Positions 5,296 through 36,509 of a stretch of DNA of 64,000 nt are shown in pieces. The notes under the pieces are model-generated. The model was not told the DNA's origin, searched no databases, and was given only the letters and a program-made list of their open reading frames with translations. Each line of letters opens with the position of its first letter. The stretch's first letter is position 1. Made by a program: the position numbers and the translations under genes. This DNA is from Halorussus vallis. Its GTDB lineage: Archaea > Halobacteriota > Halobacteria > Halobacteriales > Haladaptataceae. The stretch is from assembly GCF_024138165.1 (NCBI RefSeq), contig NZ_CP100000.1, positions 1,860,001-1,924,000 of the forward strand. The letters are read 5' to 3'.

Positions 5296-5366
5296 GCGCC
5301 GGTGGTCTAGTGGTAGGACATGAGCTTCCCAAGCTCATAGCCCGGGTTCGACTCCCGGTCGGCGCA
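5296..5366 (+). tRNA. tRNA-Gly (anticodon CCC), integration target
   Basis: The cloverleaf is complete. The acceptor stem GCGCCGG pairs with TCGGCGC (one G-U). The D arm contains AGTGGTAGGA. The anticodon stem TGAGC/GCTCA encloses the loop TTCCCAA (anticodon CCC). The T arm is CCGGG-TTCGACT-CCCGG, with discriminator A. Its 3' 42 nt are repeated exactly at 36468-36509, showing that the neighbouring element recombined here and brought its own copy of the 3' part, leaving a working gene. Confidence 0.96.
5325..5366 (+). repeat. attL core (42-bp direct repeat)
   Basis: Identical to 36468-36509. The identity starts at the first base after TGAG in the anticodon arm (C of CTTCCCAAG) and ends at the tRNA discriminator base. 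The flanking bases differ on both sides (G versus C before, G versus T after). The start within the anticodon stem-loop is the usual crossover place for archaeal and phage tyrosine integrases. Confidence 0.93.
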
Positions 5367-5551: not shown

Positions 5552-6676
5552 ATGGTGCATAGTCGTGACCAAATCGAAGACATCGTTGTCATCCCTGAAT
5601 CTACGGAACACTACTTAAACCAGAGACAGCTGGAGGACTATCGTGATCATCGTGTCCAGCTCATCAAGTGGCTGTGCCATCTGGGTAAAGATCCGGAGAA
5701 AGCCGAGGGGTACGCCTATGATACAGCCCGGCAACGCGCATACAAGACCGACCGGTTCCTTCGCTGGCTCTGGGACCATGAAGACGGGTACACATTACAC
5801 GCAACAACCGACCACGCAGACACCTACACCAAAGAACTGGTGTACGAAGATCACTCGGAGACCTACAAAGCAGGCATCCAGAAGGCCATCAAAACCCTGT
5901 TCAAATACCTGAACCACGAGAAGGGTCGGGGGATCGACTGGGAACCAGAAATCAAGTTCACCAACGGCGGCTCACAGACACACCAAGTCAGAGACTTCCT
6001 CACCGAGGATGAACGACGGAAGATCAAACAAGCCGTCCTCAAACACGGCTCGATACCCCACTACAACAGCGTCGAACCACGAGAACGCGACCAATGGAAG
6101 GCCTACCTCGCACAACGCTTCGAGAAACCCAAAGACAAGGTAACCAAAGACGACTGGAAGAAAGCGAACGGCTGGAAGTACACCTCAATAGTCTACGCCT
6201 CGATGGACGCCGGGTTCCGACCGAAGGAAGTCGGCCGCGCAAAGACGAGTTGGCTCGACCTCGAAAACAACCTCTTCCGAATCCCGAAAGAGGAGTCAAC
6301 CAAGAACCACGAGAACTGGCACGTCGCAATGAGCGACCGAACCGCCAACATACTACGGAAATGGCTGTCCGAACGCGAAAACTACAGCAAATACCGCGAT
6401 ACGGACGCACTCTGGTTAACCCGGTACAGCAACCCCTACGGCTCAGAAGCACTCAACCGACTACTCCAGAAACTCTGCGAAAAAGCAGGAATCCCAACGA
6501 AAAACAGGGACATCTCCTGGTACAGCATTCGGCACAGCGTCGGAACACAGATGAGCCGGGACCAAGGACCCGCCGCAGTCCAACAACAACTCCGGCAACG
6601 CTCCAAGGAGATGGCGGTCCGATACGACCAAGCACCAGTCGAAGACCGACAAGAAACCGTAAACAAATGGGATTAG
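5552..6676 (+). CDS. int: Tyrosine recombinase / integrase of the element
   Basis: This 374-residue site-specific recombinase probably integrates and excises the element at tRNA-Gly. Residues ~15-125 form the helical core-binding (SAM-like) domain. The catalytic domain shows the first Arg in DAGFRPKEVGRAK (~residue 224), the H-x-x-R box in SIRHSVGTQM (~323) and the nucleophilic Tyr in MAVRYDQ (~352). A strong Shine-Dalgarno sequence (GGGAGGTG, 8 nt before the ATG) fixes the start. Its position 186 bp from attL and pointing inward is typical of integrases. The gene is more AT-rich than the host genes, with many AAA/AAC codons. Confidence 0.93.
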   Translation: MVHSRDQIEDIVVIPESTEHYLNQRQLEDYRDHRVQLIKWLCHLGKDPEKAEGYAYDTARQRAYKTDRFLRWLWDHEDGYTLHATTDHADTYTKELVYEDHSETYKAGIQKAIKTLFKYLNHEKGRGIDWEPEIKFTNGGSQTHQVRDFLTEDERRKIKQAVLKHGSIPHYNSVEPRERDQWKAYLAQRFEKPKDKVTKDDWKKANGWKYTSIVYASMDAGFRPKEVGRAKTSWLDLENNLFRIPKEESTKNHENWHVAMSDRTANILRKWLSERENYSKYRDTDALWLTRYSNPYGSEALNRLLQKLCEKAGIPTKNRDISWYSIRHSVGTQMSRDQGPAAVQQQLRQRSKEMAVRYDQAPVEDRQETVNKWD

Positions 6677-6786: not shown

Positions 6787-8868
6787 CTAACCGGATTCAA
6801 AATTCTCGCCGTCCGGCGTGAGTGAAACGGGTTTCACGTCGAAGACGCGTTTCTGCCCGCCCGTGACGCGCTCCACCGTCACCGGGTCGCTCACCTGAAT
6901 CAGTCCGAAGCGTTCGAGCTTGTCAAAGCTGTAGTTAACTTTGTGGGTCGGGAGGCCAGTTGCCGACGTAATCTTGTGTGTATCGTCCTTATCTTCCCTG
7001 ATACAGGTTAGAATAGTTCGGTCGATGTTTCGTAGCGCATCATCCGTCATCTCGGGCCCATCAGAATCCACTAATTCGGAATCGGCCTCATCGTAGAGGG
7101 AGGCCCCATCTTCGGAAATTTCCAAGATCCGGTACTCAGCATCCGCCACTCGATCAATCTCGGTAAAGGACTCTCCGCCGTCGCCGGTATAGTAGCTGAA
7201 CCGTCCCTGCTCGTCTTCGAACTGGGTACCGTGTCGGTTGACGGGATCAGCGACAATCTGCTGTAGCTTCCTCGCATTTCCTTCTTCGACAACGAAGATG
7301 CATTCTCGGCCGTGGTCGACCGCTCGCTGCAGATTCCGGAGGACTTTCGCCGGTTTGGAGAGGGTGGCACGTTCTGCTTCCAGATGCGCAATCTCACTAG
7401 CAGAAAGGTGGACATGACCATCCGGTTTGTCATCACCCGTACCTTGGTTCAGAAGATTGACCTTAAAACCGCGTTCTTCTAGCTGTTCTTTGGCCGTAGT
7501 GAGGAGTTCCTTGTGTTTTTTGCCCCCGGCGTTCGCTCCATCCCCTAGATCTACTTCTAATATGGGTTGACCCGTTGAAGTTTCATTCTGTTTGAGGAGC
7601 TTTTCTTTCCGTTCCTCGACGGTGCTCGGGTCGACGCTCCACGGCGGGTACGTATCGACCACCTTTGCGGGTGGCAGTGTTTTCTCTGCCGGAAGTTGAA
7701 CAGCTGGCCGGTACTTCCCTAGATTGCTGAGATCGTCCTTCGAGAGCCCATTCATGATCGTCGTAAACGTGTTCAAGTCCTCGGACGCGCCAGGTGTGAA
7801 GACAACCTTTGTCAACGTGTTGTTCAACAGTGCTCGCTGCATCGCAGTGTCGAGATCATCAAGGTACTGTGTTGCCGCGGTGATTGAGACGTTGAACTCC
7901 CGGCACTGTGAGAGCATTCGCCGGATATGGTCTGCTTCACTAACGAACTCCTGGATTTCGTCGATCAGGATGTGGTAGGGTGGACGGTCCTCAGCGGGTA
8001 GTGAGCTTCTTGCTGCGGTGGCGCTCCAGAGCTGTGTCAGGACGACGCTGCCGATGATGCTGGCGGCCCAGTTACCGATCTGGCCGTCTTGGGCATCGAC
8101 CAAGATGATCTGTTGGTCGGCGAGTGCGTCCCGGAACGAGATATCGCTGTCTCGTTGCGTGATGATGTTTCTAACCGTCTCGTTCTCAACGAGATCGGAG
8201 AGCCGCCGCTTTAATGGTTCTCGTTGTCTCCGACTTAGCTGCTTCAAATCTTCGAGTTGTTCGCGTGTGACCGTGTCGGACGTCCTATCGATGAGATCTG
8301 AGAGTTCCCTAGTGTCGATAACACACTGGTAGAGATCCATCAAGGTGTTGTGCTCGCCGTGATGGATGTTCAAGGCGACGTGCGCCGAGAGAAGGCTTCG
8401 CAGGTTCCGGGGCCACCGCTCACCCCATTCGTCGGTCAACCGCCGGAACATGCCCATGACACTGCTGACGATAATCTTCTGCTGGTGGTTCCGCTCAGCC
8501 TGGGTCATCTCATCCGTGACCTCAGGCTTCAACAGGTTGATTCCGGGAACACGGTCTTCATTCGGGTTGATGTAGACGATGTCGTCAAGCCGATCCTCCG
8601 GGAGTTTGCCAAGCAGCTTGTCAATCACTCTGCCCTTAGGGTTGAGAAATGTAAACCCGGTTTTATACACATCCTGTAACGCAATCCACAGCAGGAGGTT
8701 TGTCTTACCTTGGCCGGTCGGACCTGTCACCGCGGTGTGCAGCATCCGATCGGTGTCGTCAACGCCGACGTGTTCTTCAACGCTGTATCGCGACATCTTA
8801 CTACCCACGTAAGTCGTGTTCTGCTTCACGGCACGCCGGACCACTTCCGGTCTTGGTTCAGCGGTCAT
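6787..8868 (-). CDS. VirD4/TraG-like coupling ATPase (last gene of the transfer operon)
   Basis: The 693-residue protein has a FtsK/HerA-type motor domain: Walker A GPTGQGKT at residues 49-56, Walker B HILIDEIQEFV near 300, and TAATQYLDDLD after it, the region of the sensor motif. After residue ~450 come an acidic linker and a C-terminal winged-helix-like region (DDTHKITSATGLPTHKVNYSF). It should drive DNA to the transfer channel. There are no N-terminal membrane helices: that role may lie with the overlapping upstream gene, whose stop overlaps this ATG (ATGA). The convergent integrase lies 110 bp away. A plain HerA helicase is the alternative, but the context favours coupling protein. Confidence 0.85.
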   Translation of the reverse strand: MTAEPRPEVVRRAVKQNTTYVGSKMSRYSVEEHVGVDDTDRMLHTAVTGPTGQGKTNLLLWIALQDVYKTGFTFLNPKGRVIDKLLGKLPEDRLDDIVYINPNEDRVPGINLLKPEVTDEMTQAERNHQQKIIVSSVMGMFRRLTDEWGERWPRNLRSLLSAHVALNIHHGEHNTLMDLYQCVIDTRELSDLIDRTSDTVTREQLEDLKQLSRRQREPLKRRLSDLVENETVRNIITQRDSDISFRDALADQQIILVDAQDGQIGNWAASIIGSVVLTQLWSATAARSSLPAEDRPPYHILIDEIQEFVSEADHIRRMLSQCREFNVSITAATQYLDDLDTAMQRALLNNTLTKVVFTPGASEDLNTFTTIMNGLSKDDLSNLGKYRPAVQLPAEKTLPPAKVVDTYPPWSVDPSTVEERKEKLLKQNETSTGQPILEVDLGDGANAGGKKHKELLTTAKEQLEERGFKVNLLNQGTGDDKPDGHVHLSASEIAHLEAERATLSKPAKVLRNLQRAVDHGRECIFVVEEGNARKLQQIVADPVNRHGTQFEDEQGRFSYYTGDGGESFTEIDRVADAEYRILEISEDGASLYDEADSELVDSDGPEMTDDALRNIDRTILTCIREDKDDTHKITSATGLPTHKVNYSFDKLERFGLIQVSDPVTVERVTGGQKRVFDVKPVSLTPDGENFESG

Positions 8869-9836
8869 AGCTGCGCATACTGGATGTTCTCTTGATCGTT
8901 GATATCCGGTATCGAGACCAGCCCCGCTAACTCCTCAATCGAGGCCTGGAATCGAAGACTGTACCCGCCGAATGTCCGACTGCCAAGCGCTCGATAGAAC
9001 TCAAGGAACCGCTTTTGTCGCAATCCCCGGATAGTGACCGTGTCGATATATTGGTTGCTCTCCAAGCTTTCATAGACGTTAAACGAGCCAGCAATCTCCT
9101 TGACCCGACTCGCAGTAAACTCTCCAGCACCGATCACAGCGAACCGTATCGACACCCAGAACCGTCGCTGATCCATCTTCCGTTCGACAAGGTCAGCCTG
9201 CTTCCGCTCCCGCGGTGTCGCCGACCGGCTTCCCCACAGTTTCTCTTGCTCCTTCCGGAGGAAATCCATAGTCTTGTGACTTCGGCGTTTCCGCAGCCAC
9301 TCCCGGACTGGTTCTCCCGCAACGGGCTTAAACAAGATTTGGACAACAAATCGAGTGTCTCGCATCGAGTCACTGTGAAGCGTCGAGATCAGTCCGTTAA
9401 TCGGTGGCGTGGCTTCGAACTCCGTCCGGAGCGGGAACCTGTCCTTTCGTCCTGTCGTTAGTATCCCGCCGCCGATTGAGTCGCCCGGTACCACAGGCAA
9501 CCTAGTGACACCCTCAGTAAATCCGATACCCGGAACCTCGTTCGAGAGGTGCGCCCGCACCTTTCTACCAAGTCGTTTAGTCGGGACACAGAACTGCAAC
9601 CATAACCGGTCACGTCTAGGACGCTGAATCTCGTATACGACAATCGGAGATGTGTTTTTCACTAGAAGACGTGTCTGTATCTCAAGCATTCCACGGACAA
9701 ACCCTTCGACCGTTGTAGGAATATCACCGGTCGCTGGTGGTTGTACCTCAACCGTGTAGAATTGTTTCGATGGAGCTGCTAAGTCCGCTGCTTGATCCTC
9801 ATCCACTTCTGTATACGCTGCAGTAAGCAGTGTCAT
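8865..9836 (-). CDS. Transfer-operon protein resembling the N-terminal half of Gram-positive VirD4-type ATPases
   Basis: These 323 residues contain no Walker motifs. The pattern is a ferredoxin-like duplicated domain: an N-terminal FYTVEVQPP strand with pre-strands up to ~110, an RKDRFPLRTE segment, a charged spacer with KEQEKLWGSRSATPRERKQ, then RFWVSIRFAVIGAGEFTASRVKEIAGSF near 225, which looks like the module placed before the motor in large actinobacterial and firmicute conjugation ATPases. It overlaps VirB4-like and VirD4-like genes by 4 nt at each end (ATGA), so the three are translationally coupled. I infer that it forms one functional unit with the VirD4-like ATPase. The sequence family is not certain. 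Confidence 0.7.
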   Translation of the reverse strand: MTLLTAAYTEVDEDQAADLAAPSKQFYTVEVQPPATGDIPTTVEGFVRGMLEIQTRLLVKNTSPIVVYEIQRPRRDRLWLQFCVPTKRLGRKVRAHLSNEVPGIGFTEGVTRLPVVPGDSIGGGILTTGRKDRFPLRTEFEATPPINGLISTLHSDSMRDTRFVVQILFKPVAGEPVREWLRKRRSHKTMDFLRKEQEKLWGSRSATPRERKQADLVERKMDQRRFWVSIRFAVIGAGEFTASRVKEIAGSFNVYESLESNQYIDTVTIRGLRQKRFLEFYRALGSRTFGGYSLRFQASIEELAGLVSIPDINDQENIQYAQL

Positions 9837-11686
9837 TCTACCGCCTCCAATTGTTCGTGCTGTTTCGGCTCGCTGTCGAAAATCCGGTGTTCCAGTGCGG
9901 TCGACCCAATTTGGAGCTTGGTGTGGACGGCGTTTGAGACGTGCAGATATGCCTCACTGTAGCTGGCCTCTTCCCCGCTTCGCAACCCCTGGATATCCAA
10001 TTCCTCTTGTCGAGACAAGATAGGGGAGTCCGGTGCATCCTCGTGACGGAAGAAGAGTTTGCCGGGAACATGATTGAGGATATTACTTCCCTCGGCGGAA
10101 TCGGCGAAATGAGACCAACTCTGGGTCACTAAATGGACAGCGACATTGATGTCTCGGGCTTCAAGCACGAACTGATTCAGGACGTGACGTCCCGCATCGT
10201 CCTTGAGAAGAAGCCGGGCTTCATCGATTAACACGATGGTTCGCTGCTGGTTTTGCGAGGTCGCAGAGTAGATTTGACGGACAAGATCGACCAACGCCGC
10301 CACGTTCTCAAACTCTCCCCGTTCCTCGACTTCGAAGCCCACGACCTGCTTATCGAACGAGTACTCTTTCCCGTGGACAACGAACCGGTGGTCACCGCCG
10401 AGTGCTTCGACCGTCTGACGGTACTCCTTCTTCGGATCAACCACGATAATCTGGATATCGGGATAGACCAGTATTGACCGCAGTAGCTCCAGATGAGCCA
10501 AATAACTCTTCCCTGACCCGAGGGTGCCCATTACGGCCATCGAGTGGGAATCCCAGCCAAACCGGTTAACCAGTATAGGAGTCCTATCTGCCGCGTCAAC
10601 CCCATACAGCACGCCGGTCGTACCGCTGAACGGCTGGGTGCCAAATGGCAGTCCCGTTGCTGCCGATACTGAAGGCATCAACAGCGTCTCGTTAAGCCGA
10701 TCATCGTAGAATGGGGAGTCTGTATAGTAGGCGTGGTCGTTCCGGAATCCAGGCTCCTGAAACCTAAGTTGAAGTGCGCCAAGTTGGGTTGTCACCCGGT
10801 CGAAGGTTGCGTCCGTCTCCTCGGAGGTTGGGCCGTGTGCTGTGACGTAGGCACCGTACTTGAGCGGGTTACAGTCCTGTCGCGCCAGCAGATCAAGGAA
10901 CCATTCAGCGTCGTCGAGCGCTCGTTCAAGCTCGTTGACTCCTTTATGACCTTGAGCAAGAAAGGCGGCGATCTCGGCATCCAACGTCTCGGAGTGACGC
11001 CGGAGCTTCCGAACCGCTTTATCCACGTTCACCGGTTGAACCACCTGTAGAACATCAACGAGGCCGTCAACCCGAAGGAGGTAACGCGGCCAGCCGAACT
11101 CGATCTCCGAGGGGTACTCGTCGATGTACACTAACTTCCGGTACTCATCGAAGTCGTGGTTTGCGGTCGCACAGTAGTGTTCTGACGGCTCCGGAGCAGG
11201 GTTGATTACCTGGCTTGCGAACTGGTGGAGAGCATCTCCTGTGATCTGCGAGACCTCAAACTCGCTTCCAGCGAACGCCGATTTTACCTCCTGAAGTCGG
11301 CGGTACAGCTCTTTTCCTGTATTTTCGTACTTCCCACCAACTACTCGAATAACGACGAAGTGGTCCGTTCGGACGAAGCCGTCCACAGCAATCCGTTGAC
11401 AATACTCTGTGTACTCAGATCGGAGCTCGGAATGGCCGGGGTTGCTCTTGACCATGTCGACGTAGTCGTCTAGGTCTGCCGGTGTCTGCCGCGAATAGAT
11501 GTAGAGGGGATACGAGATGGTGTCCAGAACCGTTTGGAAGACCTGATGGAGCACTTCGTGGTCCCGATCGGTTTTCAGGTCAAGATTCACCGGCGACACC
11601 TCCAGAACGGCCATGACAGCACGATGGTCAACGATGAGGTATGGCCGCCGGACCTCAATTTCCGGGGTGTCGATAGACCGGGTCAT
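9833..11686 (-). CDS. virB4: VirB4/TraE-like conjugation ATPase
   Basis: The 617-residue protein is the energising ATPase of a type IV secretion system. The N-terminal ~350 residues are the variable region that docks to the membrane complex. The motor domain has Walker A MGTLGSGKSYLAH near residue 390, Walker B TIVLIDEARLLL near 490, and the downstream LVTQSWSHF and GKLFFRHED stretches typical of VirB4. Its ATG shares one base with the stop (TAATG) of the VirB3-like gene, the classical virB3-virB4 neighbour pair. It carries no membrane helices. Confidence 0.9.
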   Translation of the reverse strand: MTRSIDTPEIEVRRPYLIVDHRAVMAVLEVSPVNLDLKTDRDHEVLHQVFQTVLDTISYPLYIYSRQTPADLDDYVDMVKSNPGHSELRSEYTEYCQRIAVDGFVRTDHFVVIRVVGGKYENTGKELYRRLQEVKSAFAGSEFEVSQITGDALHQFASQVINPAPEPSEHYCATANHDFDEYRKLVYIDEYPSEIEFGWPRYLLRVDGLVDVLQVVQPVNVDKAVRKLRRHSETLDAEIAAFLAQGHKGVNELERALDDAEWFLDLLARQDCNPLKYGAYVTAHGPTSEETDATFDRVTTQLGALQLRFQEPGFRNDHAYYTDSPFYDDRLNETLLMPSVSAATGLPFGTQPFSGTTGVLYGVDAADRTPILVNRFGWDSHSMAVMGTLGSGKSYLAHLELLRSILVYPDIQIIVVDPKKEYRQTVEALGGDHRFVVHGKEYSFDKQVVGFEVEERGEFENVAALVDLVRQIYSATSQNQQRTIVLIDEARLLLKDDAGRHVLNQFVLEARDINVAVHLVTQSWSHFADSAEGSNILNHVPGKLFFRHEDAPDSPILSRQEELDIQGLRSGEEASYSEAYLHVSNAVHTKLQIGSTALEHRIFDSEPKQHEQLEAVE

Positions 11687-11949
11687 TATTTTTCACCCCC
11701 GAAAACGATCCATCGGATCCGATGGTACAGGTAGACCTCAAACGGTTGCCCATAAGGATACACCGCTGCCCATACCAACCCAAGAATCACGCCGACGAAA
11801 CCGGCTCCAAGCATCGTCAAGCTTGATTGGCCTGTCGATAGCCAAGATAGCAGTGTAACCGGGAGTCCGAATCGGAGCAGATCTTTCCACGTGAACCAAC
11901 CGAAGTACCTAGGCGACCGGTCAAACCCGCTGGGCATTCGTTTCCGCAT
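11686..11949 (-). CDS. VirB3/PrgI-like small membrane protein
   Basis: This 87-residue protein has a basic N terminus (MRKRMPSGFDRSPRYFGW), one amphipathic entry segment (TWKDLLRFG) and a hairpin of two membrane helices (LPVTLLSWLSTG and LGAGFVGVILGLVWAAVYP), then FEVYLYHRIRWI. This layout and its place directly before VirB4 match VirB3/PrgI, which anchors VirB4 to the membrane. Sequence similarity alone is too weak to prove it, so the call rests on topology and order. Confidence 0.7.
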   Translation of the reverse strand: MRKRMPSGFDRSPRYFGWFTWKDLLRFGLPVTLLSWLSTGQSSLTMLGAGFVGVILGLVWAAVYPYGQPFEVYLYHRIRWIVFGGEK

Positions 11950-11952
11950 CGG

Positions 11953-12927
11953 TCACCACCTCCCTCCTCGATCACGGTCGCGCCGCCGCCGGTCACGCCG
12001 TTGTCGACGCAACTCCCCGTCACTGGGACCACCGGAACCACCCGAACCACCGGGCGGCCACCTCCGTCTCCATGTCCCCCGAATGCTGCCTGCGAGATCT
12101 CGACCGCCGATAAGTCCCTGTGAAACCGCAAGCAACTGATACGGAATATACAACATGAGAGCAAATGAGGCGACTCCCAGAATCCAGTTCGATACCGGTT
12201 GGAGCCCCAGTGTTCCGGATCCTTCCAACAGTGCGAGGCTAAAACGGAGGACAAGAGCGTCAGCAGGGCCAGTAGCAAGCAAGGCAAACCAGACCGAAAT
12301 GAATGACCGGGCGTACGCCCGCGTGGCTGGCAGAGCCCAAGCTATTGCCACTAACGGTGAAACCGCCGCTATAAAAAGCAGATATACATTTCTAAATACA
12401 AATAGTATTGCTAATGTAGCTAACGCAAACGCGTTTATCACCCATACGAGTACAAGGCCAGTGGTTAACCCTGCCAACTGTTCGACCACGATAGGATCCC
12501 GTGGTCGGAATGCCTCTACAAGTGCGTCAGCAATCCCCACTGGAATTTCCAAGACGGGCAAGGCGATCGCCGCAAAACCCATACCGATGACGAGCCGTGG
12601 CAAGATTTCACGGGCATTCCCGAACGAGACACCTAAATCGGTGGTGATCTCGGATATCCCAGCGATTACAACAATCAACACTGCGCCAGGTAGAGCCACC
12701 ATCAATGTCAGTTGGTGAATCGTCGTGACTGGAGGATTGGGATGGATCGTCGCTGTATGCAACATGACGTCAACTAAGACATCGATCATCGCTTCAGCTA
12801 GCGCCCGAAACGGAGAGAACAACAGGTTGAGAACGCCCCTATCGGAACTAGTCCCGGTTTGGGTTAAGAAAGCATCCGGGAGGAACACGAGGAAACCGAG
12901 ACTGGCGACGGATAGTTTCCGAGACAC
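11953..12927 (-). CDS. VirB6/TrbL-like polytopic membrane protein
   Basis: The 324-residue protein has about seven hydrophobic segments between residues 10 and 275, among them LPGAVLIVVIAGI, LVWVINAFALATLAILFVF and LLFIAAVSPLVAIAWAL. It ends in a strongly basic Gly/Arg tail (residues ~285-324) that should be cytoplasmic. The central segment RSFISVWFALLATGPADALVLRF resembles the conserved core of VirB6/TrbL proteins, which form the inner-membrane channel. It lies 3 nt from the genes on both sides in the operon. Confidence 0.72.
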   Translation of the reverse strand: MSRKLSVASLGFLVFLPDAFLTQTGTSSDRGVLNLLFSPFRALAEAMIDVLVDVMLHTATIHPNPPVTTIHQLTLMVALPGAVLIVVIAGISEITTDLGVSFGNAREILPRLVIGMGFAAIALPVLEIPVGIADALVEAFRPRDPIVVEQLAGLTTGLVLVWVINAFALATLAILFVFRNVYLLFIAAVSPLVAIAWALPATRAYARSFISVWFALLATGPADALVLRFSLALLEGSGTLGLQPVSNWILGVASFALMLYIPYQLLAVSQGLIGGRDLAGSIRGTWRRRWPPGGSGGSGGPSDGELRRQRRDRRRRDRDRGGRW

Positions 12928-12930
12928 CGG

Positions 12931-13293
12931 TTAGACACCTCCTGTACAGACATTGACTGGAATAAGCAGGAAAGCGATAATGAACGGCCCAGTCCAGACT
13001 AATCCAATACCCGTCAACACTCGTTGCACCCGCTGAATTGCTATCCGCTTCGCATCCTCCGACCCCCAGATCATCATCACGCCCGCATACACGAGGGCGG
13101 CCGCAGCAAGCAGCCCGCCGACGCTGAATATCAGCACCACTACTTGGTGGATTAGCAGGTAAATCGGTTCTAACGTTGATTGCCCGTCACAACCGACAAT
13201 TCCGTGGATCGCAGCGGCTGGTTGGACGAAATTTACTATCAATACTGCTGCCATGGATAGCGTCGTCACTACCCGTACTATCTGTCGTTTCAT
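12931..13293 (-). CDS. VirB2/TrbC-like pilin precursor, first gene of the transfer operon
   Basis: This is a 120-residue protein if translation starts at the ATG at 13293. A signal peptide is clear: basic MKRQIVRVV, hydrophobic core, and an AAA site before IHGIVGCDG. The mature part has two membrane helices (VVVLIFSVGGLLAAAALVYAGVM and VLTGIGLVWTGPFIIAFLLIPV) joined by a short charged loop EDAKRIAIQRVQR, the hallmark of VirB2/TrbC pilins. A longer frame extends to 13383, but its residues are arginine-rich and lie upstream of the signal peptide. The gene is divergent from the unknown gene at 13449. Confidence 0.75.
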   Translation of the reverse strand: MKRQIVRVVTTLSMAAVLIVNFVQPAAAIHGIVGCDGQSTLEPIYLLIHQVVVLIFSVGGLLAAAALVYAGVMMIWGSEDAKRIAIQRVQRVLTGIGLVWTGPFIIAFLLIPVNVCTGGV

Positions 13294-13448
13294 TTTTAGC
13301 CGTAACTCCCCCGTAATCTTGGTTTCAGCCCTTCTAAGGCGGACAGGGCATTTTGGTCTTCTTCGACCAACTCCGCAGAACAACTAAATGGCCGCCGCCG
13401 AAAATAGTTTTTCAACAACCTTTCCTTGAAGAACAGGGTGAACGAATC

Positions 13449-15416: not shown

Positions 15417-15881
15417 GTGGGGGAACAGGGTATGCGGTATCCTGAGTATGAGGACCTTCTAGCTGAATCACGTCCTGAGACCAGTCGTGGCTCTATCGAC
15501 CCGGATTTCGTGTTTGGTGAACCGGATTTGGAAGCACTTTTGATGGAATCAGAGAGACAAGAACAGAACCGGATAGAAACTGAGCTCGACCAGGTTGAGA
15601 CCTTGCTTCAGCACCGAACTGAGATCCACGAACAAACCATAGATCAGCTTGAAATCGGTCTTCAAGACGAACAAACCCGGCTAAATCGGTTGCAACGCCC
15701 GTCTATTCCGATGGATCGTATCCTCAGCCAGAAACGCCGGGTAAGAGAGCTTGAGCAACAACTGCATGAACAGCGCCAGCTCCACTGGAGTGACCGTGAA
15801 CAACTAGAACGAGAGCGACGTCGCCTTCACCGAGAGCTTGCCGAGCTTGAGGATACTGATCTCTCAGTCTTCTTCCGATGA
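15417..15881 (+). CDS. Coiled-coil hypothetical protein
   Basis: Up to 154 residues from a GTG, or 149 from the ATG at 15432, which I favour because of a GGGGGAACAGGG purine run before it. From residue ~55 to the end it is one long, highly charged helix with heptad spacing (IETELDQVETLL, RVRELEQQLHEQR, EQLERERRRLHRELAELED), a clear coiled coil. The N-terminal ~50 residues are acidic and probably flexible. The 3' end overlaps the convergent Orc1/Cdc6 gene by 18 bp. The function is unknown. Confidence 0.6.
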   Translation: MGEQGMRYPEYEDLLAESRPETSRGSIDPDFVFGEPDLEALLMESERQEQNRIETELDQVETLLQHRTEIHEQTIDQLEIGLQDEQTRLNRLQRPSIPMDRILSQKRRVRELEQQLHEQRQLHWSDREQLERERRRLHRELAELEDTDLSVFFR

Positions 15882-16934
15882 TGTGTCTTTAGATGGTGGG
15901 TCGCCGCTCCAGTCAACAAGCCGGATTTCCCGTGTTTTGCCTTTGTTACCGCCGTAGTGGTAGGTGGCCTCGATCAGTCCGAGGAATTCAAGATGGACTA
16001 GGAAGTCGCTGATACGTCGCTCACTTAACGGTGTGACATCGGCATCGATACATCGTCTCCGATAGGCTTCATATACGGTTCCTGAGACCACCGGGTCCCA
16101 GTCTTGGCTGAGTAGATCGATGGTTTCGTAGAGCCGTCTATGGTGGGGTGTGAAGTCGTCCAGTAGCTCAGTAACGTACTTTGCATAGCCCGCGGATTGA
16201 ACCTCGTCTATGAGATCGCGTGTAACTGTATCATCGGTTGCTTCTGCGGCGGCTCGTAGCCAGCATAACCCAATTGCGATGTTCGAGGTGGTTGATGCAA
16301 TCCGGGAGAGCGCGGTTCGTTCCACTGACTCGGGTTGGAGTGCGCGGCGTGCACGGTCGCCGAGTATCTGCTGGACCTGACTGACGGTGTATGGGTTAAG
16401 GCTGAGAATCTGGGGCCGAAATGAGCTGTAGGTCCGATCATCTAACTCCGGCTGTAGACTCCGGTGGTTGGCTGAAACCGTTATGACTGCGGTGTTCTCC
16501 AACCGGGTCAAGAAGTAGAGCAGATCATCGCCATCATTCAAGAGAAGGAAGTCAACTTCGTCAAGAACGATCACAGTCTCCAAGGTCAGCGTCTGTTCAA
16601 TCCGGCGCTGGAGATCAGCGACATGGTGGCCGGTCCCGACGGATTCACCGGTCAACTGTTGGAGCAGTCGCTCTAAGGCTTTGTACTGGGTGTCGTGTGG
16701 TCGTCCGGAGACGTAGCAGGTGGTCACGGTTGATGGAAACGTCGTGAGAAATTGTTTGACCAAGTGGGTTTTCCCGGCTCCACGGGGTCCGTAGAGATGG
16801 AGGTGCTGGAGTCGTGTTTCGGTGTCAGCCGCGAATGCCTCTGACAGTGTTTCCTGTTCCGGTTCTCTATCAATGAGTTGGGCGGGAAGGTACGTACGGG
16901 ACAACGGACCAGCGGTATCGATAATATCGGTCAT
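15864..16934 (-). CDS. Orc1/Cdc6-family AAA+ ATPase (copy 1)
   Basis: This 356-residue initiator-type ATPase has Walker A GPRGAGKT at residues 49-56, Walker B TVIVLDEVDFLL near 118-129, sensor-1 TVSANHRSL and a lid with RIASTTSNIAIGLCWLRAAAE, the family GDxR-like region. The C-terminal ~100 residues form a winged helix (VYEAYRRRCIDADVTPLSERRISDFLVHLEFLGLI), the origin-binding domain. Archaeal Orc1/Cdc6 proteins bind origin repeats and load MCM; plasmid and virus copies serve the element. It is divergent from a second family member, with a 230-bp gap between. Confidence 0.88.
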   Translation of the reverse strand: MTDIIDTAGPLSRTYLPAQLIDREPEQETLSEAFAADTETRLQHLHLYGPRGAGKTHLVKQFLTTFPSTVTTCYVSGRPHDTQYKALERLLQQLTGESVGTGHHVADLQRRIEQTLTLETVIVLDEVDFLLLNDGDDLLYFLTRLENTAVITVSANHRSLQPELDDRTYSSFRPQILSLNPYTVSQVQQILGDRARRALQPESVERTALSRIASTTSNIAIGLCWLRAAAEATDDTVTRDLIDEVQSAGYAKYVTELLDDFTPHHRRLYETIDLLSQDWDPVVSGTVYEAYRRRCIDADVTPLSERRISDFLVHLEFLGLIEATYHYGGNKGKTREIRLVDWSGDPPSKDTSSEED

Positions 16935-17164
16935 AGGCTTATATTTGGAGGGCGGGACTCACACGGATTTTCGGACACTGGCCTTCAGTTGGGGAAAAGC
17001 ATGACCCGGAGGATTACTACATCTTAGAGTGGTGATTATCCCGAGAATACTATTAGCGGTGTATCCATTCGAAAACCAGTACACTCCTCCACATACGAAA
17101 CAGTATCCCGGATTCAGTTTTTGAATACTCACTGACAGACAACGGTGGTGAGCGTGAACTACGA
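16935..17164. other. Divergent gap between two orc1/cdc6 genes: candidate replication origin
   Basis: The AT-rich 230-bp segment separates two initiator genes, the classical place for archaeal origins. I see only weak repeats: TATCCCG at 17037 and 17105, and GAATACT at 17045 and 17133. I did not find a clear G-run ORB repeat as known for haloarchaeal chromosomal origins. Promoters for both genes must also lie here. Confidence 0.35.
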
Positions 17165-17971
17165 ATGTTCGACAACACCTCTACTAGCAGCGGCATCATC
17201 TATTCAGAACGCTACCTAAACGGTGAAGCCAGCCTCCAGCCCACAGGTCGTGATAAGGAAATCCATGCAATCCGTGATGGGGTCCGCCCACTGATTAAAC
17301 GCAATACCCCTGAAACCCTGCTTGTCTACGGGACGCCTGGAACCGGTAAAACCGTATGTGTCAACCATGTGTTCGGCGCACTTGACCGTGAAACGAGCGT
17401 GAAAACTATCCAGATCAACTGTTGGCAGTACTCTACTCGTCCTGCGTTACTCACCGAACTGCTGATTCAGCTCGGATATCCAGCACCGCGGAAAGGCAAA
17501 CCGGTCGACGAACTGCTCTCCAAACTCCGTGAATGGCTTCAGAAAAACCGGAGTGTCGCCGTATCGCTTGATGAGTTTGATCAGTTGCAGGACAAGACCG
17601 AGGTTGCGTACGACCTCTACATGCTGAGCCAGCAAACCGAGAATAAACTTGGACTAATCATGATATCCAATCTTCCACCAGATGAACTCTTGCTCGACTC
17701 ACGGAGCTGGAGCCGGCTCAACTGCCGAACAATCGAGTTTGAACCCTACACTGCTGGCCAACTCGAAGAAATCCTTCAGGACGTCGTGGAACAGGCGTTC
17801 AAATCCGGGACAGTCAACAGCGAAGTGATTGAAGCTATCGCAGAACAGGTCGCGGACAATACAGGGGATTGCCGACAAGCCTTCGAACAACTGCTTCAGG
17901 CCGGACGACGAGCGACGCAAAATGGTGCACGCAAAATCACAGAACAGGATCTTGCCAAAGTAGACGATTAA
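17165..17971 (+). CDS. Orc1/Cdc6-like AAA+ ATPase (copy 2, short)
   Basis: The 268 residues carry Walker A VYGTPGTGKT near 54-63, Walker B VAVSLDEFDQL near 130-140 and sensor-1 LIMISNLPPDEL, then an arginine-containing lid (ADNTGDCRQAFEQLLQAGRRA) with the GD-R motif of Orc1/Cdc6. The C-terminal winged helix is missing, since the family is usually 350-420 residues. It may therefore lack its own DNA-binding domain and act with copy 1 or as an ATPase switch. It starts the rightward gene set that continues with the DUF932 protein. Confidence 0.82.
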   Translation: MFDNTSTSSGIIYSERYLNGEASLQPTGRDKEIHAIRDGVRPLIKRNTPETLLVYGTPGTGKTVCVNHVFGALDRETSVKTIQINCWQYSTRPALLTELLIQLGYPAPRKGKPVDELLSKLREWLQKNRSVAVSLDEFDQLQDKTEVAYDLYMLSQQTENKLGLIMISNLPPDELLLDSRSWSRLNCRTIEFEPYTAGQLEEILQDVVEQAFKSGTVNSEVIEAIAEQVADNTGDCRQAFEQLLQAGRRATQNGARKITEQDLAKVDD

Positions 17972-19371: not shown

Positions 19372-19908
19372 ATGCATGTTGTGAGTACGATGGGGAGCGG
19401 TGATCTCGGTCGAGAGCTTGATCTAGACTCTGTGATACAGGCCCTGGGAGAAAGCTACAGTATCGATGTGAACCGACAAAGCGATTCGATGGTGACACTC
19501 CGACTAATGCCAGAAGGACCCGCTCTCACTCTCTACCGTACCGGAACATATCAGATTCGTGGAACTGACAGCAGAGACAGCTTGTTTCAAGCCAATCAAG
19601 GACTACTCGATGCGTTAAAATCCATTGGCGTCAACTTTAGCGATCCTTCTTTTGAGCAGAAGAACGCAGTCTACTTAGAAGACCTGGAAACATCTGTCCA
19701 GTTGGAGGCTCTCTCCATACATCTCGGCCTAGAGAACATGGAGTACGAGCCAGAACAGTTCCCGGGTGTAATCTACCGACCACCAGATCTGGAAGTGGTA
19801 AACCTCATCTTCGCAACAGGGAAAACCATTATCAGCGGAACCATACACGATGAAATCGCTGAGAAGTCGGCAGAGCATCTCCGAAAACAGATTGCAGAAC
19901 TCCATTGA
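19372..19908 (+). CDS. TATA-binding-protein-like protein, divergent
   Basis: The C-terminal ~60 of 178 residues match the second repeat of TBP closely: YEPEQFPGVIYRPPDLEVV, then LIFATGKTIISGTIHDEIAEKS. The first repeat (residues ~45-95, with ALTLYRTGTYQIRGTD) is recognisable but worn, and the N-terminal strand that normally holds TATA-contact residues differs strongly. Total length is close to normal archaeal TBP (~180-186). It may be an element-specific promoter factor or a TBP-fold DNA-binding protein turned to another use. It stands directly before the type I restriction operon, 66 bp from hsdM, so it may control that operon. Confidence 0.82.
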   Translation: MHVVSTMGSGDLGRELDLDSVIQALGESYSIDVNRQSDSMVTLRLMPEGPALTLYRTGTYQIRGTDSRDSLFQANQGLLDALKSIGVNFSDPSFEQKNAVYLEDLETSVQLEALSIHLGLENMEYEPEQFPGVIYRPPDLEVVNLIFATGKTIISGTIHDEIAEKSAEHLRKQIAELH

Positions 19909-25890: not shown

Positions 25891-27876
25891 GTGAACCGCA
25901 GGAAACTTTTCGATTTTGCCAAGCAGCATGGTGTTCTTGAAGAGAACGAGGTACGAAAGCTGGTTTTAGCTGCTGAGTTTTCCCAGAACGAGTATCTTCA
26001 AGAGGCCGCCTCGAAAGCTATACTGAGTAGGTCAGTCCAACAATTTCAGCACCCTTTCAATTCTCAGTCTAGTGCTGGAGATATTGAATTGGGTCGAACT
26101 TCTGCCGATCAGATTTTCCAATTTTCACAAACTGACTTGACCAAGCATCTATTGGCGGTCGGACAATCAGGTGCAGGAAAAACAAGTTTATTCTACAACC
26201 TTCTGTCGCAACTGGACGTACCGTTCTGGAGTTTCGACTTGAAGCAGGACTACCGCCACCTTGCCTCAATAGAAGAAGAGAGCCTGTTGGTGTTGCCGTG
26301 GACCGAGCTCAAGCTTAACCCGTTGGTTCCGCCACCCGGGGTTAAGCCCCGGCGGTGGGCGCAGGTATTCAGCGAGATCTTCGGTCATGCGACCTCGTTG
26401 CTCTCTGGATCGAAGAACCACTTGCTGAAATCGATTATCGAGCTCTACCGGTTGTACGGACTTTTCGAGGAGAACTCTCCTCCGTATCCGAGTTTGCATG
26501 AGCTGGAGCAGTTCTTGGTCTCTGATTCTATCAACTACATGCGGAAGACCTCGAACTACCGGGACACGATTTTAAACCGTGTGGAGGCGATGAATCTTGG
26601 AGCCGGCACCATCTTCGACTGTAGCCAAGGCTTTGATCTCGAAGACTTGCTTTCCCGAAATGTGGTTTTCGAGTTTGACGGTTTAAGCCGTGATACACAG
26701 AACTTCTTGATGGAAACTTTGTTGGCCTGGGTCTATGAGTACCGGTTGGCTCAGACACACCGTTCAAGCGGTCTCAACCATGTGTTTGCGCTTGATGAAG
26801 GGAAGCAGGTTTTCAGTGTCTACAAGGAGCGGCAGGACGCCGCAGGTATCCCGGCTGTCGACGAGCTGACGGCCAAGATGAGAGAGTTCGGAGAAGGACT
26901 AATCGTGGCAGACCAAGAAGCGTCAAAGCTGACCGACTCGATCAAGGCCAACACGTACACGAAGGTCCTGCTCTCAACCGGCGACCAGAAGCAGTTTAGA
27001 GCAGTTGCAGATTCGATGAACCTCACTGAACGCCAAGCAGATGTAGCTCAAGACCTCGACGTTGGTGAAGCAGTAATCCAGACAGGAAACAGTAACCCAG
27101 CCCAGATTATTCTTGAAAGGTTCGAACTCGACAAGGAGGTCACTGATACCGAACTCCAAAGGAACCAAGCCAAGCTCTGGACCGAGCTATCATCGACACC
27201 TCGACAGCGACCAACAGACTTCCAAGAACTAACTGGCTCTCAAGCCCGTACGGATGAGATCATCGACGATCCCAACCAATCCGTATCTCTCTCAGCTGAA
27301 GCCGAGCAACTACTCGAAGACGCTGTCGAGTACCCGTTCGTACCGTTGACCCAGAGGTACGACCAGCTTGCCAGCCGTCGAATAGGCCACAACGCGAAAA
27401 CCGAGCTGATTGACAAAGGTGTTGTCAAGGAAGAGTTGGTTCAAACCGGGTCAGGCTCCCGGAAACTTCTCGAGCTTACCGAACGCGGAAACACGTATGT
27501 CGAAGACCAACTCGAATGCGACCCTTCTCACAAAGGACGTGGCGGAATCGTCCACAGGTACTGGCAATACCAGGTAAAGAAAGCGTTTGGGGACGCGGAC
27601 TGGACAGCAAAACGTGAACTGTTTGGTGCCGACGTCTACGCATCCAACGGTAAGACCGAGGTCGCAATCGAGATCGCGATGGAAAACACCAGCCGTGAAC
27701 AGGAACACGTTGAGAAGCATTTAGAGAAAGGATTTGACGCGGTCTGGGTATTCTGCCGAAATCCTCGGGTCCGCGAAGGACTGGAAACTCGAATCGATGA
27801 AGCAGGCCTGGACACCGAACACGTCGTGCTTCGTGAGGTCAAGGACCTCGAACAGAACCGGGGCCAGATATTCTGA
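25891..27876 (+). CDS. HerA/VirD4-type ATPase with winged helix and probable nuclease tail
   Basis: The 661-residue protein starts at GTG. Its ATPase domain has Walker A AVGQSGAGKTSLF near 89-100, FDLKQDYRHL just after, and Walker B HVFALDEGKQVF near 300, followed by GLIVADQEASKL. The region 450-530 looks like winged helices (PLTQRYDQLASRRIGHNAKTELIDKGVV). The last ~120 residues contain ADVYASNGKTEVAIEIAMEN and AVWVFCRN, a layout fitting a PD-(D/E)XK-like nuclease or an effector recogniser. It lies 64 bp after hsdR in the same direction, so it may be an accessory of the restriction operon rather than a transfer gene. Confidence 0.72.
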   Translation: MNRRKLFDFAKQHGVLEENEVRKLVLAAEFSQNEYLQEAASKAILSRSVQQFQHPFNSQSSAGDIELGRTSADQIFQFSQTDLTKHLLAVGQSGAGKTSLFYNLLSQLDVPFWSFDLKQDYRHLASIEEESLLVLPWTELKLNPLVPPPGVKPRRWAQVFSEIFGHATSLLSGSKNHLLKSIIELYRLYGLFEENSPPYPSLHELEQFLVSDSINYMRKTSNYRDTILNRVEAMNLGAGTIFDCSQGFDLEDLLSRNVVFEFDGLSRDTQNFLMETLLAWVYEYRLAQTHRSSGLNHVFALDEGKQVFSVYKERQDAAGIPAVDELTAKMREFGEGLIVADQEASKLTDSIKANTYTKVLLSTGDQKQFRAVADSMNLTERQADVAQDLDVGEAVIQTGNSNPAQIILERFELDKEVTDTELQRNQAKLWTELSSTPRQRPTDFQELTGSQARTDEIIDDPNQSVSLSAEAEQLLEDAVEYPFVPLTQRYDQLASRRIGHNAKTELIDKGVVKEELVQTGSGSRKLLELTERGNTYVEDQLECDPSHKGRGGIVHRYWQYQVKKAFGDADWTAKRELFGADVYASNGKTEVAIEIAMENTSREQEHVEKHLEKGFDAVWVFCRNPRVREGLETRIDEAGLDTEHVVLREVKDLEQNRGQIF

Positions 27877-29751: not shown

Positions 29752-29952
29752 TTAGCTGTTGAGTGCTCGCCGAACGTGTTTTCTCTTCACGGTTTGGTAG
29801 CCGTCTTCCTGGGCAACCGCAATGGCCTCCTCAGCGATGTCGCCAGCAAATCTCTCGAGAGTCTTTGCCAGTTTATCAGCCGCTGATTTAGATACCCGTT
29901 TACTGGTTTGGTCGTGGATTAGATGATGCAGTGACCGTGTTGAGAACTCCAT
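29752..29952 (-). CDS. Archaeal histone, single histone fold
   Basis: The 66-residue protein aligns along its whole length with archaeal histones: an N-terminal FSTRSLHHLIHDQ helix, then RVSKSAADKLAKTLERFAGDI with the conserved Arg-Val-Ser, then EAIAVAQEDGYQTVKRKHVRRAL with the TVKxxHV loop and the final helix. Haloarchaeal chromosomal histones are normally two folds fused in one chain; this is a single fold. It should dimerise and wrap or compact DNA. The ATG is about 25 nt from the palindromic TATA box, so its mRNA is likely leaderless. Confidence 0.9.
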   Translation of the reverse strand: MEFSTRSLHHLIHDQTSKRVSKSAADKLAKTLERFAGDIAEEAIAVAQEDGYQTVKRKHVRRALNS

Positions 29953-29976: not shown

Positions 29977-29986
29977 TATTTAAATA
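29977..29986. promoter_or_regulatory. Palindromic TATA box shared by two divergent transcripts
   Basis: TATTTAAATA reads the same on both strands. Leftward it lies 25 nt from the histone ATG, as for a leaderless gene. Rightward a start about 25 nt away would fall at roughly 30010-30015, just before the closing helix of the structured RNA. Spacing is the evidence; no start site has been mapped. Confidence 0.6.
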
Positions 29987-30018
29987 TTGAACACTATACT
30001 TCGCTTGGAAACTCAAAC

Positions 30019-30223
30019 GAAGGAAGGAGAGGGATCGTGGAACACTAAACGGACTGGAGCAAGCCCCATCCGAACCACCCCAGGAGGGTGCCTCGTCCTC
30101 CAACCGCACTGAGGCCTGAAACGGCCAAGAGAAACACCGAGTACCCGGACAGTTAACGGAAGGTTCAAAGCTCTTTCAGAACACCTAATCCATTTGAAAC
30201 CGGGTGTCACCTCTCCTTCCTTC
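30019..30223 (+). ncRNA. Candidate structured RNA or 5' leader of the second recombinase
   Basis: A perfect 14-bp helix (GAAGGAAGGAGAGG at 30019-30032 with CCTCTCCTTCCTTC at 30210-30223) closes about 177 nt. Inside I can pair GTGG with CCAC around CGGA-TGG with CCATCCG, GGAGG with CCTCC, GGCC with GGCC over a TGAAAC loop, and ACACC with GGTGT. A TATA box lies at the right distance upstream. No good coding frame exists on either strand. The recombinase ATG follows 24 nt later with its own GAGGTGA site, so this may be a regulatory leader or a separate RNA. I do not recognise a known class. Confidence 0.55.
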
Positions 30224-30246
30224 AAACCTTAGAGGTGAACTAGATT

Positions 30247-31491
30247 ATGTCTACTAAAAAATACGTTAACGTACCCAAACAGCTTCAAAACCTGGAAGAC
30301 ACGGAACTCTCAAGGGAGAACGTCGACGCTATACACCGGTTTATCGATGAATGCGCCGCAGAAGGCCTAAGCGAAGTACGTCAAAGCCGTTTGATCACCG
30401 CGTTGAAATCACTGGTGCTCAACTTCTCACCCCAAGACTTCCAACTAGAGAATGCAACAGAACAGGAACTTAAGAAGGTGATCGCCTCGTTGAACCGGAG
30501 TGACTACGCCGACTCCACGAAGCATACGATGCGAGCCACAGTAAAGAAGTTCTACAAAATCGAGAACGGTGGAAACGAACACCCGGAGAAAGTAGACTTC
30601 TTCAAGGCCTCAACCAGCAAGACCTCCACGGTTTCCCGGGACGACCTATTCACCAAAAAAGAATTGAAACAGTTGTTCCAGGGCTTCATCAACAGTCGTG
30701 ACCGCGCCTTCACAATGGTTCTATACGAGACCGCGGCAAGACCCGGAGAACTTCTTACCCGTAACATCGGTGACTTTACCAGTAACGAGAAAGGCGACTT
30801 CATCTTCCTCGAAGGAATCAAAGGAACTCCAGACAGGACTAACCAACTCGTAAGAAGCGGTAGACCCTTGCGTGAATGGATTAGTCAGCATCCGCTTGGC
30901 GGTGAACTAGGGAATATAGACGACCCCGGTGTTCCGTTATGGGTGAAGACACAGCAGCAACAATGCAAAAAATGCGGGAAAATGCCCCGGAAACATTCTG
31001 ACTCCCAGTGTGTCTACCAACCTGATAAACAGGACCGTTGGAAGTACGCCAGTTTCCTCAGGCGTTTCCAGGATGCGTGTGAACGCGCCAGTATTCCGGA
31101 GAACAAACGTCGACCATACAATTTACGGCATACTCGTTTGACCGAGGTGGCGACCTTCATGGGCTACGAACAGTTGAACAAGTTCGCCGGCTGGAAACCC
31201 GGTTCAGATCGTGCGAAGGTCTACGTCCATTTGAACAACGACGACGTCAACAAAGCCATCAGAGACGAATACGGACTCGACGTCGAGGAAGACCAAGACT
31301 CCATGACTCCATGCTCGTTTTGCGGAACCGAGAACCAGGACGTGCATACAGAGTGCCGGAACTGCGGACGACCACTCAACCTCGAACAAGAAACCCAGAA
31401 AGAGGAAAAACAGGAAGTTCTCGAACGGTTGGCCGAACTCGAAGAAGAAGGCGTCCTGGAGAAACTGAGACAGCTTGACCAACTAGATTGA
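30247..31491 (+). CDS. Second tyrosine recombinase with zinc-ribbon tail
   Basis: The 414-residue protein has an N-terminal core-binding domain (residues ~20-125) and a XerC/D-like catalytic domain: first Arg in YETAARPGELL near 163, the H-x-x-R box in YNLRHTRLTEV near 294, then FAGWKPGSDRAKVYVHL with the probable nucleophile Tyr near 325. Unusual are a Cys-rich insert CKKCGKMPRKHSDSQC near 240 and a C-terminal zinc ribbon CSFCGTENQDVHTECRNCGRP near 355, followed by a coiled coil. It is not near an att site, so it may resolve dimers, invert DNA or belong to an older nested insertion. Confidence 0.9.
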   Translation: MSTKKYVNVPKQLQNLEDTELSRENVDAIHRFIDECAAEGLSEVRQSRLITALKSLVLNFSPQDFQLENATEQELKKVIASLNRSDYADSTKHTMRATVKKFYKIENGGNEHPEKVDFFKASTSKTSTVSRDDLFTKKELKQLFQGFINSRDRAFTMVLYETAARPGELLTRNIGDFTSNEKGDFIFLEGIKGTPDRTNQLVRSGRPLREWISQHPLGGELGNIDDPGVPLWVKTQQQQCKKCGKMPRKHSDSQCVYQPDKQDRWKYASFLRRFQDACERASIPENKRRPYNLRHTRLTEVATFMGYEQLNKFAGWKPGSDRAKVYVHLNNDDVNKAIRDEYGLDVEEDQDSMTPCSFCGTENQDVHTECRNCGRPLNLEQETQKEEKQEVLERLAELEEEGVLEKLRQLDQLD

Positions 31492-36467: not shown

Positions 36468-36509
36468 CTTCCCAAGCTCATAGCCCGGGTTCGACTCCCG
36501 GTCGGCGCA
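36468..36509 (+). repeat. attR core (42-bp direct repeat, tRNA-Gly 3' fragment)
   Basis: Exact copy of the last 42 nt of tRNA-Gly(CCC). It carries the anticodon loop, variable loop, T arm and acceptor 3' strand but no D arm or 5' acceptor strand, so it is not a tRNA gene. It is the original chromosomal tRNA end displaced by the insertion. Confidence 0.93.

Follow-up and report, generated by a model that had tools for sequence, protein, structure and literature searches.

The 64-kb stretch of the Halorussus vallis genome studied here (the window) carries an integrated conjugative-type element of ~31.1 kb and low GC content, which lies between the 3' end of tRNA-Gly(CCC) and an exact copy of that end. 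Within this element, the gene for a tyrosine recombinase, here called REC, is preceded by a predicted structured RNA. The RNA forms a domain of ~150-290 nt in the window and its relatives, is closed by a helix (P1) and lies at the 5' end of the predicted REC transcript (table 1). On the comparisons set out below, we are nearly certain that it exists as a conserved structure.

The RNA domain upstream of REC

P1 is formed by GAAGGAAGGAGAGG and CCTCTCCTTCCTTC, which are exact complements 177 nt apart and lie where the first-pass annotation of this DNA had placed them. This is the single case in the window of a perfect 14-bp inverted repeat with a gap of 20-250 nt; in 20 Markov resamplings of the full window such repeats averaged 0.15, and none arose when the local kilobase was resampled 2000 times. 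The 205-nt segment folds at -70 kcal/mol, compared with -58.2 +/- 4.3 for shuffled sequences (z -2.8). Taken alone, fold stability and the unique repeat are moderate evidence, and it is the comparison with relatives that decides. The TATA box (ATTTAAATA), already judged correctly placed at first pass, lies 35 nt before CAAACGAA, a spacing that ranges from 34 to 39 nt across all 26 sequences measured. At the other end, the short gap to the recombinase start was borne out, with the small correction that the RNA ends 23 nt, not 24, before the REC ATG. Among the internal hairpins proposed earlier, GGCC/GGCC (30113-30126) has covarying counterparts in relatives (GGGG/CCCC and GGTC/GGCC); the bulged CGGA-TGG/CCATCCG hairpin was found again in the nearest relatives only, while GGAGG/CCTCC and ACACC/GGTGT are apparently particular to the window copy.

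Conservation and covariation among relatives

REC homologues of 61-80% identity, some of them partial, were found in 26 of the 391 class-level genomes at an E-value of 1e-60. An RNA counterpart precedes REC in all 25 distinct intact homologues examined, in keeping with the earlier suggestion that the RNA is part of the mobile element and linked to the recombinase gene. The order in relatives is constant: a TATA box, ~25 nt, then CAAACGAA-GGAAGGAG and onwards to a terminal CTCCTTC, after which come a ribosome site of the GTGA type and the start codon. The RNA interior varies in length (~150-290 nt) and its sequence diverges, while helices and short motifs remain. A covariance model trained on nine short RNAs recovered the held-out long RNAs with E-values of 1e-18 to 2e-3. 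Across 293 genomes, this model returned the known REC loci, an RNA before a broken REC gene (L122) and, in sister genomes, two RNAs that lack a REC; weaker matches are possibly relics or chance. The model found no intact RNA serving a gene other than REC in these genomes, and the matches that lack an intact REC look like relics.

The RNA was classed as unrecognised at first pass, and the Rfam check proposed there has now been run: neither the window RNA nor six relatives matched Rfam 15, at gathering thresholds or with permissive filters at E 1. Searches of plasmids and phages with the RNA (blastn) gave no match, and no description of it was found in the open-access literature on haloarchaeal conjugative elements, RNA-guided tyrosine recombinases and structured RNAs located near integrases (subscription papers and preprints lie outside this scope). 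On sequence comparison, the RNA is a family absent from Rfam and conserved by shape more than by sequence. A coding region was considered and rejected, as a frame is open throughout in only 12 of 26 RNAs and the frame differs between them.

Pairing was examined helix by helix with a partner-swap test, in which the pairing of each RNA's own arms was compared with that of arms exchanged among sequences. The z-scores were -6.7 for P1, -5.5 for P5, -4.2 for P2, -3.7 for P4 and -2.9 for P3. When 1292 block pairs were scanned without prior selection, P5, P1 and P4 were the strongest and none passed +3 in the opposite direction. RNAalifold gave little when applied to all sequences together, since their MAFFT alignment combines different architectures; this was resolved by splitting the RNAs by length into two MAFFT alignments, A2 (nine short RNAs) and A3 (12 longer RNAs). 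The covariation score was 0.370 for A2 against 0.180 when shuffled and 0.339 for A3 against 0.184, values reached by none of 500 shuffles. Under a tree-aware null, in which columns evolved independently along the REC tree in 1000 runs, covariation of P4 and P5 was reached in 0-3 runs, that of P6 in one and P1 pairing in 0-2 (counts uncorrected for selection). Covariation and conservation had been set beforehand as the test that could refute the RNA, and the RNA withstood it, with P1, P4, P5 and P6 covarying. The helices tested contain 45 G-U pairs against 14 A-C mismatches, and an RNA of the + strand is therefore favoured. One strand, seg2, covaries with three partners, namely seg1 (P4), seg3 (P5) and, in the longer RNAs, seg4; P4 and P5 are mutually exclusive. 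One RNA segment also has matches to three others, in direct or inverted orientation. The three partners of seg2 may reflect a switch, intermolecular pairing or shared evolution of a repeated motif.

The RNA and REC also diverge together. RNA and REC distances correlate with r 0.70, compared with r 0.42 for REC and HerA, and the RNA length class tracks REC clades with a single exception (G327). Between the most distant element pairs, conserved DNA near REC spans only ~-270 to +1230, which corresponds to promoter, RNA and REC. Comparison thus shows the predicted promoter, RNA and REC to be inherited as one unit across a haloarchaeal integrative element family.

Several further loci deserve mention. 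At L123 and L124 (~10100-10270), RNA-like sequence with a promoter stands without REC; these copies, from two related genomes, are mutually similar and may be recent relics or still in use. In a Nanohaloarchaea metagenome-assembled genome (L054, 4100-4500), the RNA 3' half and REC adjoin a seemingly interrupted tRNA-like gene, either a true junction or an assembly fault. The RNA is absent upstream of distant recombinases (28-31% identity), and three recombinases of ~30% identity (L027, L030 and L035) have another upstream block in common, containing a short hairpin and a T-arm-like GGGTTCAAAACC stretch. A small histone-fold gene (window 29752-29952) is divergent from the RNA, and similar small genes are present at L037 and L047.

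REC and its element

The catalytic residues of REC (R165, R294, W316 and Y326) are invariant in 18 homologues. Its profile similarity to XerA and XerD is weak, and its AlphaFold model is poor (mean predicted local distance difference test score, pLDDT, 59). As a protein query, REC matched no plasmid and only relatives of 25-27% identity in three archaeal virus records; no contig matched in IMG/VR. By its genomic setting, REC is distinct from the element's integrase: the tRNA attachment (att) site has another integrase next to it, and an integrase distinct from REC lies beside a tRNA gene in the window and in eight relatives (G041, G292, G259, G237, G350, G253, G182 and G372). For this reason, the earlier description of the RNA as possibly controlling recombination needs correction.

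Starting from the tRNA, the gene order is integrase, type IV secretion system (T4SS)-like genes, Orc1/Cdc6-like genes, type I restriction, HerA/CedD-like ATPase, RNA-REC and further defence-like genes. The core of this order is kept in relatives, where the integrases adjoin tRNA-Thr(GGU) or tRNA-Gly and att repeats delimit elements of 31-50 kb. Two elements of 13-14 kb bounded by tRNA-Thr repeats (G156 and G372) hold an integrase and RNA-REC without a T4SS, together with NACHT, QatC-like and LmuB-like defence-like genes. Window positions 5325-36509 exemplify a haloarchaeal family of integrative conjugative-type elements that occupy tRNA-Gly and tRNA-Thr genes and carry defence cargo, and that also occur in small versions without a T4SS. 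Integron-like cassettes were considered and rejected, as no att-like repeats surround the cargo. A TATA-binding-protein paralogue (19372-19908) lies directly before hsdM/S/R, a pairing also seen in G259, G336, G384 and G350.

Table 1. Features of the element, the RNA and REC in the window.
Feature	Position	Strand	Basis
attL, 3' part of tRNA-Gly(CCC)	5325-5366	+	exact 42-bp repeat
Canonical integrase, adjoining attL	5552-6676	+	PF00589; same family beside tRNA genes in relatives
T4SS-like genes (VirD4/TraG-like, VirB4-like, pilin)	6787-13383	-	Pfam; order kept in relatives
Small coiled-coil protein and two Orc1/Cdc6-like proteins (opposite orientation)	15417-17971		conserved across element family
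HerA/CedD-like ATPase, conserved upstream partner gene	25891-27876	+	kept in relatives
TATA box of RNA-REC transcript	29978-29986	+	sequence; spacing to RNA kept in 26/26 sequences
Predicted transcript start	~30005-30010		prediction
Structured RNA (3' boundary set at P1 end)	30005-30223	+	kept in 25/25 distinct intact homologues examined; found, weakly, by covariance model built without window copy
P1 closing helix, 5' arm	30019-30032	+	own pairing versus swapped partners z -6.7; covariation tests
Region matching P4/P5 segments of relatives, restructured in window copy	30060-30110	+	comparison table
Hairpin GGCC-TGAAAC-GGCC, then conserved unpaired AAGAGAAAC	30113-30135	+	covarying hairpin in relatives' table and alignment
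P1 closing helix, 3' arm	30210-30223	+	pairing and covariation tests as for 5' arm
Shine-Dalgarno-like GAGGTGA, outside RNA domain	30232-30238	+	sequence; no masking above chance in relatives
REC, tyrosine recombinase, 414 aa, inserted CxxC...H..C motif and C-terminal zinc ribbon	30247-31491	+	PF00589, PF13240
attR, exact copy of tRNA-Gly 3' part	36468-36509	+	repeat

Candidate roles of the RNA

We tentatively read the RNA as a cofactor of a REC-based DNA-transfer module. RNA and REC would together constitute the mobilisation module of the element, with REC working on a nearby origin of transfer (oriT) in the manner of the tyrosine-recombinase relaxases MpsA, MobK and TcpM. The RNA would be read from its own TATA promoter, possibly be cut free of the mRNA, and bind REC or the transfer complex, as sgm-sRNA may in the element SGI1. 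It might also change shape during transfer work, a possibility suggested by helices that share one strand. We prefer this reading because REC is distinct from the integrase, the scan of the element's proteins gave no relaxase domain, 13-14-kb elements that have no T4SS retain both the integrase and RNA-REC, and SGI1 and MobK offer precedents.

In SGI1 of Salmonella, the tyrosine-recombinase-type protein MpsA is the relaxase, and a self-encoded adjacent small RNA (sRNA) is essential for transfer by a mechanism that is not known; the module comprises MpsA/MpsB, oriT and sgm-sRNA, the latter being the 3' part of a transcript and lying between mpsA and oriT (PMC9299015). Like SGI1, the family described here combines, in an integrative element that encodes an integrase of its own, a self-encoded RNA and a second recombinase of the tyrosine family, which is distinct from the integrase, carries PF00589 with its catalytic residues and has the RNA beside its gene; in both cases the module is kept by elements without a T4SS (here G156 and G372). 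However, SGI1 is bacterial, its sRNA is a 3' part of a transcript whereas the window RNA is the 5' leader of REC, and a transfer function is proven for SGI1 alone, the likeness drawn here being one of gene setting. MobK, a tyrosine recombinase-type enzyme, nicks oriT with its recombinase tyrosine (PMC8152469). MobK and TcpM share with REC the tyrosine-recombinase fold, a catalytic tyrosine and an association with transferable DNA lacking a classical relaxase, although no RNA partner is mentioned in the descriptions consulted, and relaxase activity is for REC a candidate property.

Several points weigh against a transfer cofactor. The window RNA is without the standard P4 and P5 and scores low in the covariance model (23 bits, E 6e-4). 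The helices were picked after inspection of the alignments, which is why the tree-aware counts carry no correction for selection, and P2 was not significant under that null. No oriT was identified in the element, and the relaxase scan covers Pfam and one element. The minimal set of integrase and REC could reflect a resolution or maintenance function, and the precedents MpsA, MobK and TcpM are all bacterial and likened to REC by setting. All action of the RNA is inferred here, as are, from the sequence, its transcription, its binding to REC and its role in transfer.

Ranked behind the cofactor reading, and doubtful although a real possibility, is a cis-acting leader that sets the amount of REC through REC autoregulation, a cell protein or transcript stability, with no role away from its own mRNA. 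This would suit the position of the RNA in the 5' leader of all intact relatives, on the REC strand between the fixed TATA box and a Shine-Dalgarno-like GTGA, and the mutually exclusive P4 and P5 pairings are switch-like. However, P1 closes the RNA off as a domain of its own before the ribosome site, no conserved T-run was seen in the RNA alignments, and the Shine-Dalgarno zone is unpaired at 0.53, against 0.48 when leaders are shuffled, and lacks a conserved partner. The riboswitch-like leader of the first-pass annotation fares no better, since this zone is masked to no greater degree than behind a shuffled leader and has no covarying partner; nor is a conserved ligand-binding core visible, because the RNA interior evolves fast.

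It is improbable that the structure works as DNA, by single-strand folding of an oriT, a single-strand origin or a recombination site near REC. Inverted repeats near the enzyme gene are typical of tyrosine-recombinase sites and oriTs, and the direct or inverted copies of one RNA segment would fit such a site, but the fixed distance from the TATA box to the 5' end of the structure and the excess of G-U pairs over A-C mismatches both argue for RNA. The arms are moreover unlikely to be sequence-specific binding sites, because they change fast while REC is nearly invariant. More doubtful still is that REC acts as a resolvase keeping the excised element monomeric, with the RNA or its DNA as an accessory. 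The weak profile matches of REC to XerA and XerD recall archaeal XerA and pNOB8-type integrases, and large elements carry replication genes (Orc1/Cdc6-like); in contrast to those integrases, REC has extra zinc motifs, is not the integrase of its element and comes with an RNA, a partner that a term search of a review (PMC8371274) did not show. RNA-REC is also kept in small elements without Orc genes, and the window element yielded no repeated Xer-like site.

IS110 bridge RNAs are structured, ~150-300 nt long and located upstream of the recombinase gene on the same strand. Least probable of all is that the present RNA, which resembles them in size, position and strand and has a quickly variable interior, is a guide whose loops pair with DNA and steer REC to a target or donor, since REC is a tyrosine recombinase and not a DEDD transposase, integration is accounted for by the other integrase, and in ~25 elements no consistent match between an RNA and its own element rose beyond chance (guides of 7-9 nt fall below the reach of this test).

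The transfer of large elements between archaeal cells is poorly understood. An RNA-dependent tyrosine recombinase would be the first of its kind in archaea, and perhaps the first member of this enzyme class whose strand cleavage or transfer needs a dedicated structured RNA that alternates between competing folds, although we consider this rather unlikely. REC, a conserved recombinase that comes with its own RNA, is a concrete candidate for initiating DNA transfer in an element in which no relaxase was found, and SGI1 may not be alone in its unusual requirement for an RNA. The RNA family itself, outside Rfam and of measurable shape, is present in a cultured host, Haloferax gibbonsii ATCC 33959 (L049).
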